The translations under genes and the position numbers were made by a program. Of a DNA stretch of 64,000 bases, positions 39,883-49,715 are shown one piece after another. Numbering within the stretch: the first letter of the stretch is position 1; each line of letters opens with the position of its first letter. Source of the stretch: Candidatus Tectimicrobiota bacterium (lineage in GTDB: Bacteria; JACPUC01); the NCBI GenBank assembly GCA_016192455.1, contig JACPUC010000026.1:213355-277354 (forward strand). Reading direction: 5' to 3'. Under the pieces are notes generated by a model, which saw nothing but the letters and a program-made list of their open reading frames with translations, had not been told where the DNA came from and made no database searches.

Positions 39883-40144
39883 CCCTCCTGGCCGCGACAT
39901 TGCCCCTGGCGAAGGCGGCCGGTGGCGGACGCAACCATGGAAGAGGCGCCTGGCGACACCCTACGGCGCTCCTCCAGCCGCCGTAAGGAGTTTCGGACCA
40001 GGGCGCCCTCGGGTGGTTGGGTTCTCGGCGGAGAGACTAGGTAGCCGTTGCAAGTCGCAGCCTGGTGTGCCATACTTCCGCGCAACCTACCCGACCTCTT
40101 CACTCGCGATACGCTAACGTCGTTCGTTGCAGAGGAGTTTCAGC

Positions 40145-40804
40145 ATGTCCGAGCGCTACGACATCACCATGTATATTTGCTACGTCTGACCCTACGCCGC
40201 CCGGGCCACGGAGTGGCTCTATCGGCTGCAAGAGAAGTGGGGCGAGAACCTCAACGTCACCTACAAGTCGTTCGTCCTGGAGCAGGCCAACTCGCGCCGC
40301 GAGCCGGAGTGGAAGGTCTGGCTCGACCGCTACTTCCCGAGCCGCGACCTGCCCCCCCTGGAGGCCGCGAAGTGCGCCGCCATGCAGGGCGAGGAGGCGT
40401 TCCGGGCCTATAACATCCGCCTCTTCCGCGCCTGCCATCAGGAGAAGCTGGAGATCACCAACCAGCTCGTGCTCTACGAACTGGCGAAAGAGGTCGGGCT
40501 GGACGCCGCGTGCTTCTCCGCCGACCTGCGCAGCAAGCGGGCGCGCGAGCTGGTGGCCCAGGAGCACGAGGAGGCGGTGGCGCGCTACGGCCTCTTCGGC
40601 GTGCCGACGATCATCTTCGAGGAGCGCGAGGCGGTCTTCGTCAAGCTCGAGCCGGGCGACTGGGAGGGGACGGACGACGAGGCGCTCTTCCGGGACATCG
40701 CAAAGATGGCCACGCGCTACCCGAAGCTCCTGGAGCTGAAGAAGCCGGACTCCGAAGTGCTGGCCAGGAAGTCCGCCGAGAAGTACGCCAAGCGCCAGGC
40801 GTAA
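40145..40804 (+). CDS. selenocysteine-containing DsbA/FrnE-like thiol oxidoreductase (in-frame TGA)
   Basis: A 219-residue thioredoxin-fold protein of the DsbA-like group. ATG 40145 follows AGAGGAG. Translation gives MSERYDITMYICYV, then TGA at codon 15 (40187-40189), then PYAARATEWLYRL onward in frame to the TAA at 40804. In this family, as I recall it, the same place reads as a conserved catalytic Cys before Pro-Tyr. The TGA thus replaces a redox Cys, and Cys12 at -3 creates a Cys-x-x-Sec motif. A SECIS-like hairpin follows the TGA. The cis-Pro block FGVPTIIFE is present. Standard annotation would start at Met80 and lose the active site. It needs the Sec machinery, not seen in this window. 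Confidence 0.8.
40197..40225 (+). promoter_or_regulatory. bacterial SECIS-like hairpin
   Basis: GGGCCAC (40203-40209) pairs with GTGGCTC (40213-40219) around a GGA loop. An outer CCG/CGG pair (40197-40199 with 40223-40225) closes a 3x3 internal loop. The loop begins 20 nt after the TGA, and its first two bases are G, as expected for bacterial SelB-binding elements. Confidence 0.7.
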
Positions 40805-41457: not shown

Positions 41458-41868
41458 TCACAGCCGCGCGAGTAATGTCTCCACCTTGTCCCGGATCATA
41501 TCTCGGATGCTGCGGAAGTCCTTGAATGCCATCTCTTTCGGATCAGGAATGTGCCATTCTTCCCGGATTTTTGCTGGTACGAACGGGCAGGCGTCCCCGC
41601 AACCCATGGAGATGACGGCATCGTACTCGTTCATCGGAATCTCGGCGAGGGACTTGGAGCTATGGATGGAAAGGTCGTAACCGACCTCGTTCATGGCTTC
41701 GATGGCTTTCTGGTTGAGGCGCCCGGAAGGCCGTGCTCCAGCGCTCCAGGCCTCGATCCGTGCACCGCCGAGCATCCGAGCGAAGGCTTCAGCCATCTGA
41801 CTCCGGTTGGAGTTCTCGATGCAGACGAAGAGGACGCGCTTGCGACCGCGGGAGTCGTTGGGCTGCAT
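41458..41868 (-). CDS. arsC: arsenate reductase, low-molecular-weight phosphatase type
   Basis: A 136-residue ArsC of the thioredoxin-coupled phosphatase-like class, reducing arsenate to arsenite. The P-loop is VCIENSNRSQMAE with nucleophile Cys16, Arg22 and Ser23. The resolving cysteines are Cys90 and Cys94 in SMGCGDACP. These correspond to the Cys10/82/89 triad of the plasmid pI258 enzyme. DPKEM carries the general acid Asp. It is the third gene of an arsR-acr3-arsC operon, 20 bp after the transporter gene. Length is normal. Confidence 0.92.
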   Translation of the reverse strand: MQPNDSRGRKRVLFVCIENSNRSQMAEAFARMLGGARIEAWSAGARPSGRLNQKAIEAMNEVGYDLSIHSSKSLAEIPMNEYDAVISMGCGDACPFVPAKIREEWHIPDPKEMAFKDFRSIRDMIRDKVETLLARL

Positions 41869-41888
41869 CGTTCTTCCTCAACGACGTA

Positions 41889-43007
41889 TCAAGCGGGGGT
41901 CGAAACGGTGAAGAACATGCGCTGGAACCGGAGCGCCACGTTCACCAGGCTGATGAGCACGGGCACCTCCACCAATGGACCGACGACCGCCGCGAAGGCG
42001 GCGCCCGAGTTGATGCCGAAGACAGCGACCGCCACGGCGATGGCCAGCTCGAAGTTGTTGCTGGCCGCGGTGAACGACAAGGCGGTCGTCTTCGCGTAGT
42101 CCGCTCCGATCTTCCTGCCCATCCAGAAGGAGACCAGAAACATCAGCACGAAGTAGAACAGCAATGGCACGGCAATCCGCACGACATCCAGCGGAATCCC
42201 CACGATCAGCTCGCCTTTCAGGCTGAACATCACCAGGATTGTAAAAAGGAGCGCGGCCAGCGTAATCGGGCTGATCTTCGGGATGAACGACCTCTCGTAC
42301 CAGGTCTTGCCCTTCACCTTCAGCAGCACAAAGCGCGTGATCATGCCGGCAAGGAAGGGAATGCCGAGGTAAATGAAGACGCTCTCCGCGATCTGGCCCA
42401 TGCTCACCTTGACGATGCTCCCGCTCAGGCCGAAGAGTGGAGGGAGGACCGTGATGAAGACGTACGCGTAGGCGCTGTAGAAGAGTACTTGGAAGACACT
42501 GTTGAACGCTACTAGGCCGGCGGCGTACTCGGTGTCCCCCTCGGCCAGTTCGTTCCACACGATGACCATTGCGATGCAGCGCGCCAGGCCGATCATGATC
42601 AGCCCGACCATGTACGCCGGGTAACCCCTCAGGAAGAAGATCGCCAGGAAGAACATCAGCATCGGCCCGACGATCCAGTTCAGCACCAGTGAGACCCCAA
42701 GGACCTTCCAGTTGCGGAATACGTCCCTGAGTTCCTCGTATTTCACCTTCGCAAGCGGTGGGTACATCATGAGGATCAGTCCGACGGCGATCGGGATGTT
42801 CGTCGTGCCGACTTGGAACCGGTTGATGAATGCATCGACGCTAGGGAGAGCGTAGCCGGCGCCGACCCCCACCGCCATGCCCAGAAAAATCCACAGGGTC
42901 AGGTATCGGTCCAAGAAAGGGAGATTCGCGGCAACGCCATGGGACGACTGGCGTATGGCGCCGTCCATGACAGACCGATTCGGTGTGGTGGTCTGAGCAT
43001 CGCTCAT
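41889..43007 (-). CDS. acr3: arsenite efflux transporter ACR3
   Basis: A 372-residue ACR3-family arsenite permease with ten predicted membrane segments. The signature Cys is in [19 protein letters not shown], which contains the conserved thiolate that binds arsenite. [17 protein letters not shown] is the other conserved segment. It exports arsenite produced by ArsC. ATG 43007 overlaps the arsR stop (ATGA) and has AGGAGACATCACG upstream. A long upstream frame extension is the shadow of arsR and is not used. The N-terminal 30 residues before the first helix are soluble. Confidence 0.92.
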
Positions 43008-43375
43008 CGTGATGTCTCCTCGCAACCAGGCGGGCAGCATCCACCCGTCATGCGCAGCCTCTTCGCCCGGGCCTGGTCTCCCTCGAGCTCGGGCGCCTCC
43101 TGGAAACAACTGCCCAGACAGTCGAGCAGCTTCGCGTGGAAGCTGGTGCGAGCCTCCGTCAGCGAATAGAAGCACCAGCGGCCGTCCTTGCGGACCTCCA
43201 CCAGACCGGCTTCCCGCAGATAGCGCAGATGGCGAGAGGCCGTCGGCTGGGGAACTTGCAGCACCTCGACAAGATCCCCCACGCACATCTCGTCCTCGCG
43301 CAGCAGCAGGAGGATGCGCAGACGGATCGGGTCGGTGAACGCCCGGAACATGCGGTTAACGGCCGCGGTTCTCAT
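43004..43375 (-). CDS. arsR: ArsR family metalloregulator
   Basis: A roughly 123-residue winged-helix repressor of the ArsR/SmtB family. The DNA-binding helix is in [35 protein letters not shown] is the conserved N-terminal helix. The usual ELCVCDL metal motif reads EMCVGDL, so one Cys is missing. The C-terminus is Cys-rich instead (DCLGSCF and GGCCPPGC), suggesting arsenite is bound there as in other atypical ArsR types. It starts at ATG 43375 (GTG 43381 is possible). An inverted repeat overlaps the start and probably serves as operator. The stop overlaps the acr3 start. Confidence 0.9.
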
Positions 43376-43399
43376 ATTCACTTATCCGAATATATGTGA
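43372..43399. promoter_or_regulatory. putative ArsR operator
   Basis: TCATATTC (43372-43379) and GAATATATGTGA (43388-43399) form an imperfect AT-rich inverted repeat overlapping the arsR start. This is the usual site for ArsR autorepression. Confidence 0.5.
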
Positions 43400-44491
43400 G
43401 GCGTGGATATCTGTCAAGGTGTCGGCTGCCGCGGGGGCACTGCAAAAGCAATGTCGTGGACTGGCCTTCGGGCACAGAACGTCCGAGACGATGGCCTGGC
43501 GTTGCGCGCGGCGTACTCGCGGCCCACCACGTCGCGCACCTTCACTTCCAGGGCCTTCCCGGCCAGTGCTGAATGGCGAGCCGCGCCAGCGAGCTCATCG
43601 GGTCTCCCCGGGGCGCCCGTGTCCGGCAGCGTCCGCTTCGTTCCCCTTGTTTGCTTTGATGATGGTTCCCTGGGCCTGGAGTAAGCCTCCTTTTTCCCCA
43701 AGGTGTCCAGCCGAAGCATACTTTATCGGGCCGAGGCTCAGCCCCCCTTGCTTGATCAATAAGTTTTAGACTTTCTCGATCATATATAGTATGCGTTATT
43801 CTTATGCTAGATATTGATATCTATCAAGTTTTTTCATTTTCACCGTCATTACATTAGCATCGAGTTCCTGGGAAGGGCGCAGGGTCGCCTACCTACATGG
43901 GTCTCCGGGCTCCGATGTTCGACTGCCTCAGCCAATGAAGCTAAGAATCTAGCCAGGCGTTGAAGCAGACTCCGCAGTGCTTAGGAGAAAGGCTGAAGAG
44001 AGAGTCCATCTCTACCGCTCTTCCGGGCGGTTTGTTCGCGGTGTCAAGCATGGCGAGGCGTCACGCTCCTGCTAGCCGCAGTGCTTTTCCTCTTTCCTTG
44101 ATAGCACAACATCCTGCTATCATCGCCTGCCACGTCACTGTAGTCCGTTCTCTCCACTTGGCAAGATCACCATTCAAGTGCGCCTCCACGATCCCATCGC
44201 AAACCCCGGTTAAAGCTAAGTCTGAACGCCCCAAATATCCTTTTAGTTTCTCATGCCTTAACTTCAAAGCACAAATTTATGAACGCCGCCTAAATTATTC
44301 ACATTTCAGTGAACCATACGCACCATCCTTAGATACTTTCTCCAGCAACTCTTCCTATTCATTCCGCCGCACCATGATGTGTCAAAAAGCCGATGTTCAA
44401 TATGTCAGCAGTGCCCTGTTACTCCATTGTGGTAAACTTCTCACCTGCCAATCGTTGCGTTTCCAGCGTGGTGTCAAAAAGGAGATCTCCT
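43400..44491. other. 1.1-kb AT-richer region with no supported gene
   Basis: The right half is visibly less GC-rich than the rest of the window. Short frames on both strands, including one overlapping the start of the iron-sulfur subunit, carry no motif and look compositional. It contains a strong FNR-type promoter at 43814 and then about 630 nt of leader before the TtrB-like start. It may include eroded mobile DNA. Confidence 0.5.
43814..43855 (+). promoter_or_regulatory. FNR-type class II promoter of the TtrBCA-like operon
   Basis: TTGATATCTATCAA (43814-43827) is a perfect FNR palindrome. TACATT lies at 43850-43855, the exact -10 position for a box centred at -41.5. The predicted start is near 43862 with transcription rightward. 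DNA around it is strongly AT-rich. Confidence 0.75.
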
Positions 44492-45259
44492 ATGCATGAT
44501 ACGACTCGCACGCGAAAGAAGATGGACCGCCGAACCTTCCTCAAGCGTTCACTAGCTTCGGGAGTGGCTGCGGCAACGGCGGCAGCAGCAGCCCCTAGCA
44601 ACGCTGCGGAGCCGAAGGCCCACCCGAGCAAACAGCTCGGCATGGTGATCGACCTGAAGAAGTGTATTGGGTGTAATGCTTGCACGATCTCCTGCAAGAG
44701 CGAGAACCATACCCCGCCGGGGGTGGTCTACAACGTGGTGCTTGAAGAAGAAGTGGGAGAATACCCCTATGTGTCGCGGCGATTCCTGCCGCGGCCCTGC
44801 ATGCATTGCAAGAATCCCTCCTGCACGAAAGTGTGCCCGGTTGGGGCCACCTATAAACGAGAGGAGGATGGCATCGTCGTTATTGACTATGATCGTTGCA
44901 TCGGCTGCCGCTACTGCATTGCAGCCTGTCCTTACGACGCGCGGTACTTCGACTTCGGTGAAGAATATAATGCCACCCCTACGGCGTTCGACCAATCCCT
45001 TTCCCCCGAATATGGCGAGTTGCGCAAGCGGCGCAAAGGGCGTTCCCCCATCGGCAATACCCGCAAGTGCACCCTCTGTCTCCACCGGATTAAGAAAGGG
45101 CTACAACCGGCCTGCGTCGATACCTGCCTCGGTCGTGCGCGTTACTTCGGCGATGTGGCGGATAAACAAGGGCCGTTGTGGCAGATGATCTCGAGACGCA
45201 GTCACATGCGCCTGCGCGAGGACTTGGGCAACGAACCATCTGTTTACTACCTACTGTAG
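44492..45259 (+). CDS. ttrB: four-cluster ferredoxin subunit of a respiratory molybdoenzyme (TtrB/PsrB/NrfC type)
   Basis: A 255-residue iron-sulfur subunit. The N-terminus has a twin-arginine signal (DRRTFLKRS, Arg13-Arg14) and an Ala-rich segment, so it is exported folded. Four [4Fe-4S] motifs follow: CIGCNACTISCK, CMHCKNPSCTKVC, CIGCRYCIAACPYD and CTLCLHR with CVDTC. It relays electrons between the NrfD-like membrane subunit and the catalytic subunit. It is the first gene of a B-C-A operon, the order seen in tetrathionate reductase ttrBCA and selenate reductase srdBCA. ATG 44492 follows AAGGAG. Confidence 0.88.
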   Translation: MHDTTRTRKKMDRRTFLKRSLASGVAAATAAAAAPSNAAEPKAHPSKQLGMVIDLKKCIGCNACTISCKSENHTPPGVVYNVVLEEEVGEYPYVSRRFLPRPCMHCKNPSCTKVCPVGATYKREEDGIVVIDYDRCIGCRYCIAACPYDARYFDFGEEYNATPTAFDQSLSPEYGELRKRRKGRSPIGNTRKCTLCLHRIKKGLQPACVDTCLGRARYFGDVADKQGPLWQMISRRSHMRLREDLGNEPSVYYLL

Positions 45260-45276
45260 ACCGGGAGGTATTGGCG

Positions 45277-46560
45277 ATGGATCAAGGAATCTTGCTGCAG
45301 AACAGGACCCTGTTTCGCGGCATGCTCGGGATGATTCTCGTTGCCCTGGTGATCGGTAGCATAGGCATGGTCATCCGATTCAGTGAAGGACTCAGGGTCA
45401 CCAATCTCGGCAGCATCATTCCGTGGGGCCTGTGGGTAGGCTTCTACATTTATTTCATTGGGTTGAGCGCCGGCTCGTTCTTGCTCTCGACGCTCGTCTA
45501 CGTGTTCCGCCTCGAAAAGTATGAGCCATTGGGACGGCTGGCGTTGTTCCAGGCTCTTATCTGCCTGGTGATCGGGCTGCTTTTCGTCTTCATCGACCTG
45601 GGGCATCCCTGGCGATTTTATATGGTGTACATCTCCCAGAACTGGCATTCCGTGCTTGAATGGGAAATCCACTTCTACCTGCTCTATATCGTCTTGCTTG
45701 CCGCTGAGCTTCACCTGGTGATGCGGGAGGATTTTCGCCTCCTTGCCGAGCGCAAGCGGGGCGTCAGGCGGTTTGTATATCGCCTCTTGTCGCTCTGGGC
45801 GGATGCGCCAACTCCCCGCATCAGGGAACGTGCCGCCACCGTACTGAAGGTATGCGGAATCATTGGCATCCCCACCGCCATCGCCGTGCACGGCGGCACC
45901 GGCGCCATCTTCGCGGTCGTCAAGGCCCGACCGTACTGGTACTCCTCTCTCTTCCCCGTCATCTTCCTGGTGTCGGCGTTGGTCTCCGGGGGCGGGCTCA
46001 TGCTCTTCTTGCGGGCTTTCTTCTTTAGCAACGAGACGCCGGAGGAGCGCGACATGCTTGCCGGACTTGGAAAGATGACAGGCGGCCTGCTGGCGCTGGA
46101 CCTCTTACTTCTGTCAATCGAGACGCTGGTCGGGTTCTACGGCGACATTCCAGAACACGTCGCAACCCTGCGGATGATCATGTTCAATGGACGGTATGCC
46201 TGGGCCTTTTGGATTCTTCAAGTAGCCATCGGAACCATTCTTCCCCTCATTATCTTTCTTTCCGGACGAGCTTCCCGATCGGTGGCGGCTCTGGGATTCG
46301 CTGGATTGAGCATTGTCGTGGGCATCGTGTCGGTGCGCATGAACATCGTCATCCCCGCGCTTGCCTTGGCCATCTTGCCGGGACTGACGGAGGCGTACCA
46401 CAACATCCGGCTCGATGCAGTCTACGCCCCGAGCCTCGTTGAATGGCTTACCACCATCTTCGCCTTGGGTCTGTTCGCCTTGCTTCTCGTTGCCGGACTG
46501 CGGCTCCTGCCCCTCGGCAAGAATCGTTTTTGGCAACGGGCAACCCTCGCGGAGGAGTAA
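45277..46560 (+). CDS. ttrC: NrfD/PsrC-family quinol-oxidising membrane subunit
   Basis: A 427-residue integral membrane protein with about ten hydrophobic segments. Family features are IPWGLWVGFYIYFIGLSAGS in the first helices and a DLGHPWRF segment. NrfD/PsrC/TtrC proteins take electrons from menaquinol and hand them to the iron-sulfur subunit. It starts 17 bp after the iron-sulfur subunit gene behind GGGAGG and ends 2 bp before the catalytic subunit start. The complex should face the periplasm and support anaerobic respiration. Confidence 0.88.
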   Translation: MDQGILLQNRTLFRGMLGMILVALVIGSIGMVIRFSEGLRVTNLGSIIPWGLWVGFYIYFIGLSAGSFLLSTLVYVFRLEKYEPLGRLALFQALICLVIGLLFVFIDLGHPWRFYMVYISQNWHSVLEWEIHFYLLYIVLLAAELHLVMREDFRLLAERKRGVRRFVYRLLSLWADAPTPRIRERAATVLKVCGIIGIPTAIAVHGGTGAIFAVVKARPYWYSSLFPVIFLVSALVSGGGLMLFLRAFFFSNETPEERDMLAGLGKMTGGLLALDLLLLSIETLVGFYGDIPEHVATLRMIMFNGRYAWAFWILQVAIGTILPLIIFLSGRASRSVAALGFAGLSIVVGIVSVRMNIVIPALALAILPGLTEAYHNIRLDAVYAPSLVEWLTTIFALGLFALLLVAGLRLLPLGKNRFWQRATLAEE

Positions 46561-46562
46561 CC

Positions 46563-49500
46563 ATGGATAGAAAGCGCCGCAACTTCCTCAGGACAACCGC
46601 CCTTGTGGGTTCAGCCGTGGCCGTGGGCGCCAAGGTGCAGCAAGTGATGACGCGTCTGGCGTACGCTGCGCATGAACAAACAATGGGAGAGTCCACGTTC
46701 GACTACGCCCAGCAGCATGCCGAAAACCGCATCTACAGCACCTGCTTGCAGTGTCACACCGCCTGCCAGATCGCCGCCAAGATCGTCGATGAGGTATGCG
46801 TGAAGCTTGATGGGAGCCCCTACAGTCCCCAGAATCTACTCCCTCACATTGCTTACGAAACCTCTCTTCAAGAAGCGGCAAAGATTGATGGCAAGCTCTG
46901 CCCGAAAGGACAGGCCGGAATCGAGACGCTCTACGATCCTTACCGCATCAGAAAAGTGTTGAAGCGGGATGGTCCGCGTGGCTCGAACCGCTGGAAGACC
47001 ATTTCGTTCGAGGATGCCATCCGCGAGATCGTGGAAGGCGGCAAGCTCTTCGCGCACCTGAACGAGCAGCAGGAGGTGGAAGGCCTGCGCTCCATCTTCG
47101 CTCTTCGCGATGCCTCGCAGGCAGCGGCGCTGGCTGCTGATATTCAGCGCCTCCGCTCAAGAACCATCAGCCTGGCCGAGTTTCGCTCCAAGCATCGTGA
47201 CGCTGCCGAGGTGCTGATCGATCCCAATCATCCAGACCTGGGCCCGAAGAACAACCAGTTCGTGTTTCTGGCGGGGCGCATCGAGCATGGTCGCAAGGAG
47301 TTCATGAATTGGTTCACGCGAACTTCCTTTGGCTCCGTGAACACAATTGAACACACCTCCATCTGCGAGCAGAGCCACCATATCGCCTACGGCCAGGTCA
47401 CCGCGCAGCCGCAGGGCAAAACATGGAAGCCCGGCCTCACCCATTTGAAACCCGACGCCGCCAACGCTGAATACATCCTCTTCTTCGGCACCGGCGCCTT
47501 CGAGGCGAACTTCGGCCCCACGCCAATGGCCGAGAAGATCACCCAGGGCATGGTCGACAGGAATCTGAAGATCGATGTCGTCGACCCGCGGCTCTCCAAG
47601 ACAGCCGGCAAAGCCAGCTCCTGGATCCCCATCAAGCCAGGCACCGACGGCATGCTGGCCCTGGCCATGGCAAGCTGGATCATCTCCCAGGAGCGCTTCG
47701 ACCGCCGCTACCTCGAGAATGCCAATGTGGCTGCGGCCCTGGCAGATGGCGAACCCACCTGGACGAGCGCGACTTACCTGGTGAAGCTGGAGAACGACCG
47801 ACCAAGCCGCTTTGTTCGTGCCAGCGAGCTGGCTCTCGGGAAGGAGGACGAGTTCGTTGTTCTCAGCGCTGGCAAACCAACGGCGGTTCGCCCGAACGAC
47901 ACAAAGACCCCGATCCATGGCGACCTCTTTGCCAGCTACGGCAGAGATGGCCTTCAGGCGAAAACCTCCTTTGCCCTGTTCGCCGAACTGGCCCAAAAGA
48001 CCAGCCTGGAAACGTACGCGAACCGTTGCGGCGTTGCCAAGGACGAGATCGTTCGCCTGGCTCGCGAGTTCACCAGCCATGGCAAGCGCGCCGTGGCGGA
48101 GTTTTACCGCGGTGCCGTTAAGCACACCGACGGCTACTACCAGGCGCAGGCGATCATCTCCCTCAACCTCTTGCTGGGAAACGCGGACTGGAAGGGCGGG
48201 CTAAGCAAGGGAGGCGGCCACTGGCACGAATTCGGCGGCAAACCGGGGAACCTTTTTGATTTCAAGAAACTCAATGCCGGCGCCCTGAAGACGTTTGGCA
48301 TGCCCATCTCGCGCGAGGCTTGGGCCTACGAGGAGACGACGCTTTTCGGCGGCAAGGGGTACCCGGCGCGGCGTCCCTTCTATCCCTATAGCAACAATAT
48401 CTACCAAGAAGTGATCCCGTCGGGGGCCGAGGGCTACCCTTACCAAGCCAAAGTTCTCCTCCTGCACAAGGGCACGCCGGCCTTGTCGACTCCAGCAGGA
48501 CACAAGTTTATCGACCTGCTGCGCGATACCACGAAGATACCGCTGTTCATCTCCTGCGACATCGTGCTCGGAGAGACGACGATGTACGCGGACTACGTGT
48601 TTCCCGACCTCACGTATCTGGAGCGCTGGGGAACGCCGCACGTTACCCCTGATGTGCAGACGAAAGCAAGCAAGGTGCGTCAACCAGTCGTCGAACCTCT
48701 TACCGAATCCGTGACCATTGATGGTGAGGAAATGCCGATCTGCATGGAAGCCCTGCTTATCGCCTTGGGCAAGAGGCTCGGTCTTTCAGGGTTCGGTCGG
48801 GATGCTTTCGGCGCTGGAGAGCACTTCAATCGGCCCGAAGATTTCTATTTGAAAGCCGTTGCCAACATCGCCCATGGTGACAAACCAGGCGAGGCGGTTC
48901 CGGAGGCGAGCGATGAGGAACTCGCGCTCTTTCAGAAAGCTCGTCGTCATCTCCCCAAGTCCGTCTTTGACGAGGCACAATGGCGCAGGGCGGTTGCCGG
49001 CGATGAAGCCCGCTGGCGGCGCACCGTCTATGTGCTGAACCGCGGGGGACGCTTTGAGGCTGCCGACAAGGCGTATACCGGGGATCGCCTAACCCATCGC
49101 TACGGAGAGATGTTCAACTTCTTCTGCGAAGAGGTGGCTTTGGGTCACAACAGCATAAGTGGAAAGCTCTTCGAAGGCTTTCCGCATCCAGAACCACCGC
49201 AGGATGCCGCAGGCAAACCTGTGAAGCAGTCGGGACACCGGTTTACCTTGCTTACCTACAAGACGATCCACCACGGGCAGTCCCGCACCGCACCGCCAGA
49301 CTACTGGCTCGCAGACCTGTTGCCGGAAAACCATGTGCTGATGAACGCCGCCGATGCGCGGAAGCTAGCCTTGAAGGCAGGGGACATTGTACGCCTCGTC
49401 TCGCAGTCAAACCGCGATGGCATGTTTGATGTCGGGGATGGCAGACGACTGGCAGTGCAGGGGAAAATTCGCCCCATTCAAGGGCTGCGCCCAGGAACAA

Positions 49501-49715
49501 TCTCCGTATCCTGGCACTTTGGGCACTGGGCATACGGCTCTCAGGATGTAGTCATCGATGGCATCACAATCAAGGGTGACTCGCGCCGGAACACTGGCCT
49601 TACTACCAATCCGGTGCTCCTGACGGACCCGCTCATCAAGAACGTGTGTCTGACAGACCCAATAGGCGGCAGCGCTTCCTTCTTCGACACCAAGGTCAAT
49701 CTCGTCAAAGTGTAA
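46563..49715 (+). CDS. ttrA: TtrA/SrdA-type catalytic molybdopterin oxidoreductase
   Basis: A 1050-residue DMSO-reductase-family catalytic subunit. A twin-arginine signal (KRRNFLRTT) begins the protein. The N-terminal [4Fe-4S] motif has Cys61, Cys64, Cys68 and Cys113. Cys268 in HTSICEQS is the likely molybdenum ligand. Length and the CLQCHTAC/GSPYSP pattern fit tetrathionate-reductase-like TtrA better than arsenate reductase ArrA (about 850). The substrate could be tetrathionate, selenate, arsenate or another oxyanion or sulfur compound. The neighbouring ars operon makes arsenic compounds possible but does not prove it. The ATG is behind GGAGGAG. Confidence 0.85.
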   Translation: MDRKRRNFLRTTALVGSAVAVGAKVQQVMTRLAYAAHEQTMGESTFDYAQQHAENRIYSTCLQCHTACQIAAKIVDEVCVKLDGSPYSPQNLLPHIAYETSLQEAAKIDGKLCPKGQAGIETLYDPYRIRKVLKRDGPRGSNRWKTISFEDAIREIVEGGKLFAHLNEQQEVEGLRSIFALRDASQAAALAADIQRLRSRTISLAEFRSKHRDAAEVLIDPNHPDLGPKNNQFVFLAGRIEHGRKEFMNWFTRTSFGSVNTIEHTSICEQSHHIAYGQVTAQPQGKTWKPGLTHLKPDAANAEYILFFGTGAFEANFGPTPMAEKITQGMVDRNLKIDVVDPRLSKTAGKASSWIPIKPGTDGMLALAMASWIISQERFDRRYLENANVAAALADGEPTWTSATYLVKLENDRPSRFVRASELALGKEDEFVVLSAGKPTAVRPNDTKTPIHGDLFASYGRDGLQAKTSFALFAELAQKTSLETYANRCGVAKDEIVRLAREFTSHGKRAVAEFYRGAVKHTDGYYQAQAIISLNLLLGNADWKGGLSKGGGHWHEFGGKPGNLFDFKKLNAGALKTFGMPISREAWAYEETTLFGGKGYPARRPFYPYSNNIYQEVIPSGAEGYPYQAKVLLLHKGTPALSTPAGHKFIDLLRDTTKIPLFISCDIVLGETTMYADYVFPDLTYLERWGTPHVTPDVQTKASKVRQPVVEPLTESVTIDGEEMPICMEALLIALGKRLGLSGFGRDAFGAGEHFNRPEDFYLKAVANIAHGDKPGEAVPEASDEELALFQKARRHLPKSVFDEAQWRRAVAGDEARWRRTVYVLNRGGRFEAADKAYTGDRLTHRYGEMFNFFCEEVALGHNSISGKLFEGFPHPEPPQDAAGKPVKQSGHRFTLLTYKTIHHGQSRTAPPDYWLADLLPENHVLMNAADARKLALKAGDIVRLVSQSNRDGMFDVGDGRRLAVQGKIRPIQGLRPGTISVSWHFGHWAYGSQDVVIDGITIKGDSRRNTGLTTNPVLLTDPLIKNVCLTDPIGGSASFFDTKVNLVKV

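Follow-up and report, generated by a model that had tools for sequence, protein, structure and literature searches.

A predicted DsbA-like selenoprotein with a CxxU motif in Candidatus Tectomicrobia and related uncultured bacteria

Described DsbA-like selenoproteins and the new locus

DsbA-like selenoproteins with a UxxC motif were reported from the Sargasso Sea (PMC1088965), both UxxC and UxxV types from GOS (PMC2398784), and further members are known from Asgard archaea (PMC11227280). The 2026 family table contains a UxxC and a DxxUP form (PMC13188914). Neither this table nor the 2022 family table holds a CxxU form of the DsbA-like fold; the unvalidated candidates of a groundwater MAG survey, to which the 2026 review refers, lie outside this comparison and may already include one. 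A literature search for selenoproteins in Tectomicrobia returned no match. Since CxxU is listed in none of these sources for this fold, we take the variant presented here to be new, within a group of selenoproteins that is already known.

The gene is located at positions 40145-40804 on the plus strand of the window, the whole 64,000-nucleotide stretch of DNA that was analyzed. It starts with ATG, encodes Cys12-Tyr-Val, has a single TGA at codon 15 (40187-40189) and continues for another 204 codons to a TAA at 40802-40804, giving a predicted DsbA-like protein of 219 residues with selenocysteine (Sec) at codon 15. A Shine-Dalgarno-like AGAGGAG (40131-40137, plus strand), read from the sequence, lies just 5' of the ATG. 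The ribosome-binding site and the open frame through the TGA had been proposed in a first-pass annotation and were confirmed here, as was its statement that ordinary gene calling begins at Met80 and loses the active site, which corresponds to a 140-aa ORF (40382-40804, plus strand) in the standard listing. The read-through protein matched the PF01323 DSBA profile with 62.5 bits (E 5.9e-17; curated cut-off 25.6), and the sole match in NCBIfam was a weak one, far below the cut-off, to the Rcas_1661 selenolipoprotein family.

About 40 open frames cross a TGA in the window when both strands are considered, most of them shadow frames in this GC-rich DNA. Such a frame is therefore not unusual on its own, and the case for selenocysteine rests on comparison. 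The abundance of these chance frames would also fit a TGA that is a true stop codon or an error, the gene being a pseudogene or translation restarting at Met80. We regard this as highly improbable: the TGA is fixed in about 20 genomes with the protein conserved on both sides of it, Met80 is not conserved among the orthologues (alignment of 38 sequences), and the stem downstream of the TGA is under synonymous constraint. Chance is ruled out because the TGA is kept in all orthologues found and the third codon positions of the stem are almost fixed.

Conservation of the in-frame TGA and of the CxxU motif

The closest orthologues in a search of 192 spread genomes were 56% and 49% identical to the window protein, each with exactly one TGA. 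Within the two phylum-level groups concerned, the orthologue was recovered from 15 of the 18 genomes in one and from 4 of the 5 in the other, always with one TGA. All of these 19 genomes (47-56% identity), as well as one Deltaproteobacteria MAG, encode CY[V/I]-TGA-PYA, and none of them has a sense codon at the position of codon 15. The concern that resequencing might turn the TGA into TGC or TGT is thus answered by the 19 other searched genomes and the named MAGs, which show TGA at the same codon. According to named records, the orthologue groups represent Candidatus Tectomicrobia/Entotheonella, with some MAGs labelled as Nitrospinaceae, Proteobacteria or Deltaproteobacteria.

The motif of the window clade is, without exception, CY[VI]-U-PYA-x-RA-x-EWL, of which CY[VI]UPYA is invariant. 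Cys12 (TGC, 40178-40180, plus strand), which is replaced by Asp in relatives, is invariant in the clade, so the CxxU motif is real and the Cys12-Tyr-Val-Sec15 arrangement of the first-pass annotation stands. About 18 members of the sister group, which is composed of Chloroflexota, Thermomicrobiota and one Nitrospinota MAG, have the motif D[YF]x-U-P[YFW]V, and eight Chloroflexota/Thermomicrobiota homologues in the same group have D[YF]x-C-P[YF][VAT] with TGC codons; TGA and TGC alternate at this one column. A tree built from 51 sequences placed all CxxU members on a single branch (support 97/91), and Sec and Cys were mixed in the sister group. As judged from the alignment, the pairing of predicted Sec with Cys at the codon-15 column is the defining mark of a selenoprotein family. 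A Cys aligned to codon 15, which had been suggested as a check, was thus found in the eight TGC homologues and also in Cys24 of the Deinococcus radiodurans protein DR2335. We also considered that UGA might be recoded as Trp or some other amino acid and rejected this, since homologues have Cys at this position and the genome has a complete Sec system.

The Cys at +3 of a CPYC site is absent; the window protein has Ala18 and the entire clade has UPYA in place of the CxxC or UxxC pair of canonical DsbA and FrnE proteins. The window protein resembles form 1/DsbA 1-2 (UxxC) in its match to PF01323 and in the N-terminal catalytic position of its Sec, but has Ala at +3, where the resolving Cys is located in those proteins, and Cys at -3. 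It shares with form 2 (DxxUP; PMC13188914) and 'DsbA 3' (UxxV; PMC2398784) the PF01323 match, the Sec before Pro and the lack of a Cys at +3. The Pro at +1 of the DxxUP motif is present, whereas the Asp at -3 and the Val at +3 of these forms are replaced by Cys and Ala in the whole clade, which is thereby set apart by motif. The Chloroflexota and Nitrospinota relatives (DYxUP[YFW]V) carry exactly the form 2/'DsbA 3' motifs, a match that is one of motif only. In SelW/Rdx-type selenoproteins, U takes the second position of a CxxC motif. Likened by motif only, the window protein shares with them a CxxU beside the turn between strand and helix of a thioredoxin fold, and differs from them in that its U is the first position of the site, with a Cys added upstream.

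Other DsbA-like genes with an in-frame TGA were also observed. A UxxC paralogue (L018:1258-1881, plus strand) is located on the window's own contig (G000:C31, about 97.4-98.0 kb), ~156 kb away; it has the motif DYL-U-PWC and its active site is lost under ordinary calling. Close UPWC relatives of this gene, also with TGA, are present in Tectomicrobia/Entotheonella genomes, and the UPWC group is more distant from the window clade. A candidate selenoprotein with a signal-like N-terminus and the motif DYQ-U-PFC is encoded in another genome (G084; L042:1243-1821, plus strand). A search of plasmids for relatives of the window protein recovered only distant Deinococcus DsbA family proteins.

The downstream hairpin and the selenocysteine machinery

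In the published model of bacterial SECIS elements, a stem of 4-16 bp carries a loop of 3-9 nt that is located 16-37 nt after the UGA, with a G in the first two nucleotides of the loop and frequently G or U coming next (PMC13188914). The predicted hairpin in the window gene (40203-40219, plus strand) agrees with this model: the arms GGGCCAC (40203-40209) and GTGGCTC (40213-40219) form a 7-bp stem with a GGA loop (40210-40212), the distance from TGA to loop is 20 nt, and the hairpin begins about 13-14 nt past the TGA and ends ~30 nt past it. A search against Rfam gave no SECIS match, as is expected from the diversity of bacterial SECIS elements.

The folding energy of the hairpin did not differ significantly from that of shuffled sequences (z -0.17), nor was covariation in the stem significant, with one compensated double change that was matched in 160 of 500 shuffles. 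Because paired changes were too few to score, a test for synonymous constraint was used in their place. Stem pairing and the loop G were kept in 20 of 20 distinct CxxU sequences, which share ancestry and are not 20 independent trials, as compared to 4-17% of synonymous resamplings per gene. The pairing-bearing stem codons tested at their third positions were those for R, A, E and L. The third-base entropies of the A, E and L codons were 0, 0.29 and 0.29 bits, which places them among the least variable wobble positions of the gene (mean 1.06 bits for 35 other invariant residues), and the codons for P, Y and A that separate the TGA from the stem vary at the third base. The RNA evidence is thus synonymous constraint over the stem, rather than folding energy. 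Of the SECIS-like stem at the right distance that the first-pass annotation had described, the geometry was borne out and the stem proved to be constrained, but neither folding energy nor covariation gave a significant signal.

The window genome (4.46 Mb in 31 contigs, 88% complete) is apparently the sole member of its own phylum-level group among the genomes searched. The sel genes that the first-pass annotation had suggested looking for are all present in it above the curated cut-offs, namely tRNA-Sec with a TCA anticodon (75.5 bits), selB (366 bits), selA (596 bits), which adjoins selB, and selD (389 bits). Most of 14 control genomes fall below these cut-offs. Since the sel genes and the DsbA-like gene lie on different contigs of one assembly, the link between them rests on correct binning; independent support comes from related genomes with both the gene and tRNA-Sec. 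In the two phylum-level groups (18 and 5 genomes), tRNA-Sec scored above the cut-off in 19 of 19 genomes that carry the orthologue, and two genomes without tRNA-Sec, with a completeness of only 67% and 70%, were also without the orthologue. SelA was above the cut-off in 19 of 24 genomes checked and was partial or missing in some of the incomplete ones. The selD gene of the window genome (L020:1501-2424) has an in-frame TGA of its own at the usual catalytic position (VKVAG-U-AAKLG).

In every test run, comparative genomics supports the prediction that UGA codon 15 is decoded as Sec. Conservation of the TGA, the neighboring Cys and the RNA hairpin in about 20 related uncultured bacteria argues for a real selenoprotein subfamily.

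Predicted fold, proposed mechanism and gene neighborhood

An AlphaFold2 model built on 38 sequences (pLDDT 95) has a strand at residues 5-11, followed by Cys12-Tyr-Val-Sec15 and a helix at residues 16-35. The model and its structure matches display the DsbA fold with the inserted helical domain, in agreement with the PF01323 profile match. The best solved match was DR2335 (PDB 7DK9/7DKA; Z 23.7, rmsd 2.4 over 195 residues), of which the C24S mutant has also been solved, followed by Rv2466c (Z 18), GST-kappa (17) and FrnE (17). In this model, the fold is that of the DsbA/FrnE/GST-kappa group and is nearest to the single-Cys protein DR2335, not to periplasmic DsbA, which refines the earlier designation as DsbA-like. 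An active site at residues 11-15, directly after the start, does not fit with a signal peptide.

In a review of Deinococcus, DR_2335 appears as a protein with one conserved Cys for which no function has been reported (PMC8945050). It is 23% identical to the window protein and shares the CPYA core (DFLCPYA), with Cys24 aligned to codon 15, in line with the proposal that the TGA replaces the catalytic Cys that precedes Pro-Tyr in this family. It differs in having Cys24 and an Asp at -3 where the window protein has Sec15 and Cys12. FrnE from D. radiodurans and Rv2466c from M. tuberculosis, reductases described as cytosolic, similarly have the DsbA fold with the active site after strand 1; unlike the window protein they have a CPWC-type two-Cys site and no Sec. 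The loop G-V-P-T (residues 152-155; 40598-40609, plus strand), in which P154 and T155 are invariant and G152 nearly so (38 sequences), is expected to face Sec15 and is presumably the cis-Pro loop that is typical of thioredoxin folds.

GST-kappa and HCCA isomerase belong to the same fold group (Z 16-17), and some relatives have Ser-Pro at the aligned position (e.g., L030, FDFLSPYV). The protein could be an enzyme of this type, a class marked by a catalytic Ser and glutathione binding, in which Sec replaces the Ser, rather than a disulfide oxidoreductase. We consider this unlikely: the structure matches are better for DR2335 and Rv2466c and equally good for FrnE, and a column in which Sec and Cys alternate is characteristic of redox sites.

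The explanation that we consider probable as a whole is a thiol/selenol oxidoreductase of the cytosol with a single DsbA-fold domain, for which UGA codon 15 would be translated as Sec by the SelA, SelB, SelD and tRNA-Sec of the genome, guided by the downstream hairpin. By alignment and model, Sec15 directly precedes helix 1 and occupies the position that the nucleophilic Cys has in DsbA, FrnE and DR2335, from where it may attack a disulfide or another oxidized substrate. Its invariance and its position at the end of strand 1 make Cys12 the most likely resolving residue: it would close the selenenyl intermediate into a Cys12-Sec15 selenenylsulfide, which a cellular reductant would reopen. The Thr residue that contacts the catalytic Cys in peroxiredoxins sits at -3, which by analogy makes a contact between Cys12 and Sec15 plausible. 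The enzyme would most likely have a reductive role, acting on disulfides, mixed disulfides or a small oxidized substrate in the cytosol. We also lean towards the view that the clade is a separate subfamily with a rebuilt redox pair, in which the Cys at +3 has been lost and a Cys at -3 forms the selenenylsulfide with Sec in a CxxU site.

A tentative alternative is that the protein is a genuine selenoprotein in which Sec15 acts alone with an external low-molecular-weight thiol, Cys12 serving to tune the selenol or to bind a ligand or metal. Such a one-Cys mechanism is expected for the nearest solved relative, DR2335, which has one active-site Cys and an Asp at -3, and for the UxxV sister clade, whose motif lacks a second Cys; Cys12, on the other hand, is invariant in all CxxU sequences and marks the whole clade.

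A comparison of gene neighborhoods among the orthologues identified no shared operon or conserved neighbors between genera. An arsenic-type cluster at 41458-43381 on the minus strand of the window, with genes for an arsC-like arsenate reductase, an ACR3-like transporter and an ArsR-like regulator, is located downstream of the selenoprotein gene and convergent with it, and is not conserved beside its orthologues. Since no operon is shared between genera, the arsenic genes were not counted as functional evidence. Further along the window (44393-49715, plus strand), an Fe-S subunit and a membrane anchor are encoded together with a large molybdopterin oxidoreductase-like protein that has a twin-arginine-like leader; this gene set is probably a respiratory reductase.

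Standard annotation would truncate the genes of the CxxU subfamily in Tectomicrobia and Entotheonella, and the selenoproteome of these uncultured lineages would thus be undercounted. The gene is also a clean case of a protein-coding SECIS element under measurable synonymous constraint. With UxxC, a lone U (UxxV), a lone C (DR2335) and CxxU, a natural series is available within one fold, so that the effect of the position of the resolving Cys on selenol chemistry becomes testable.
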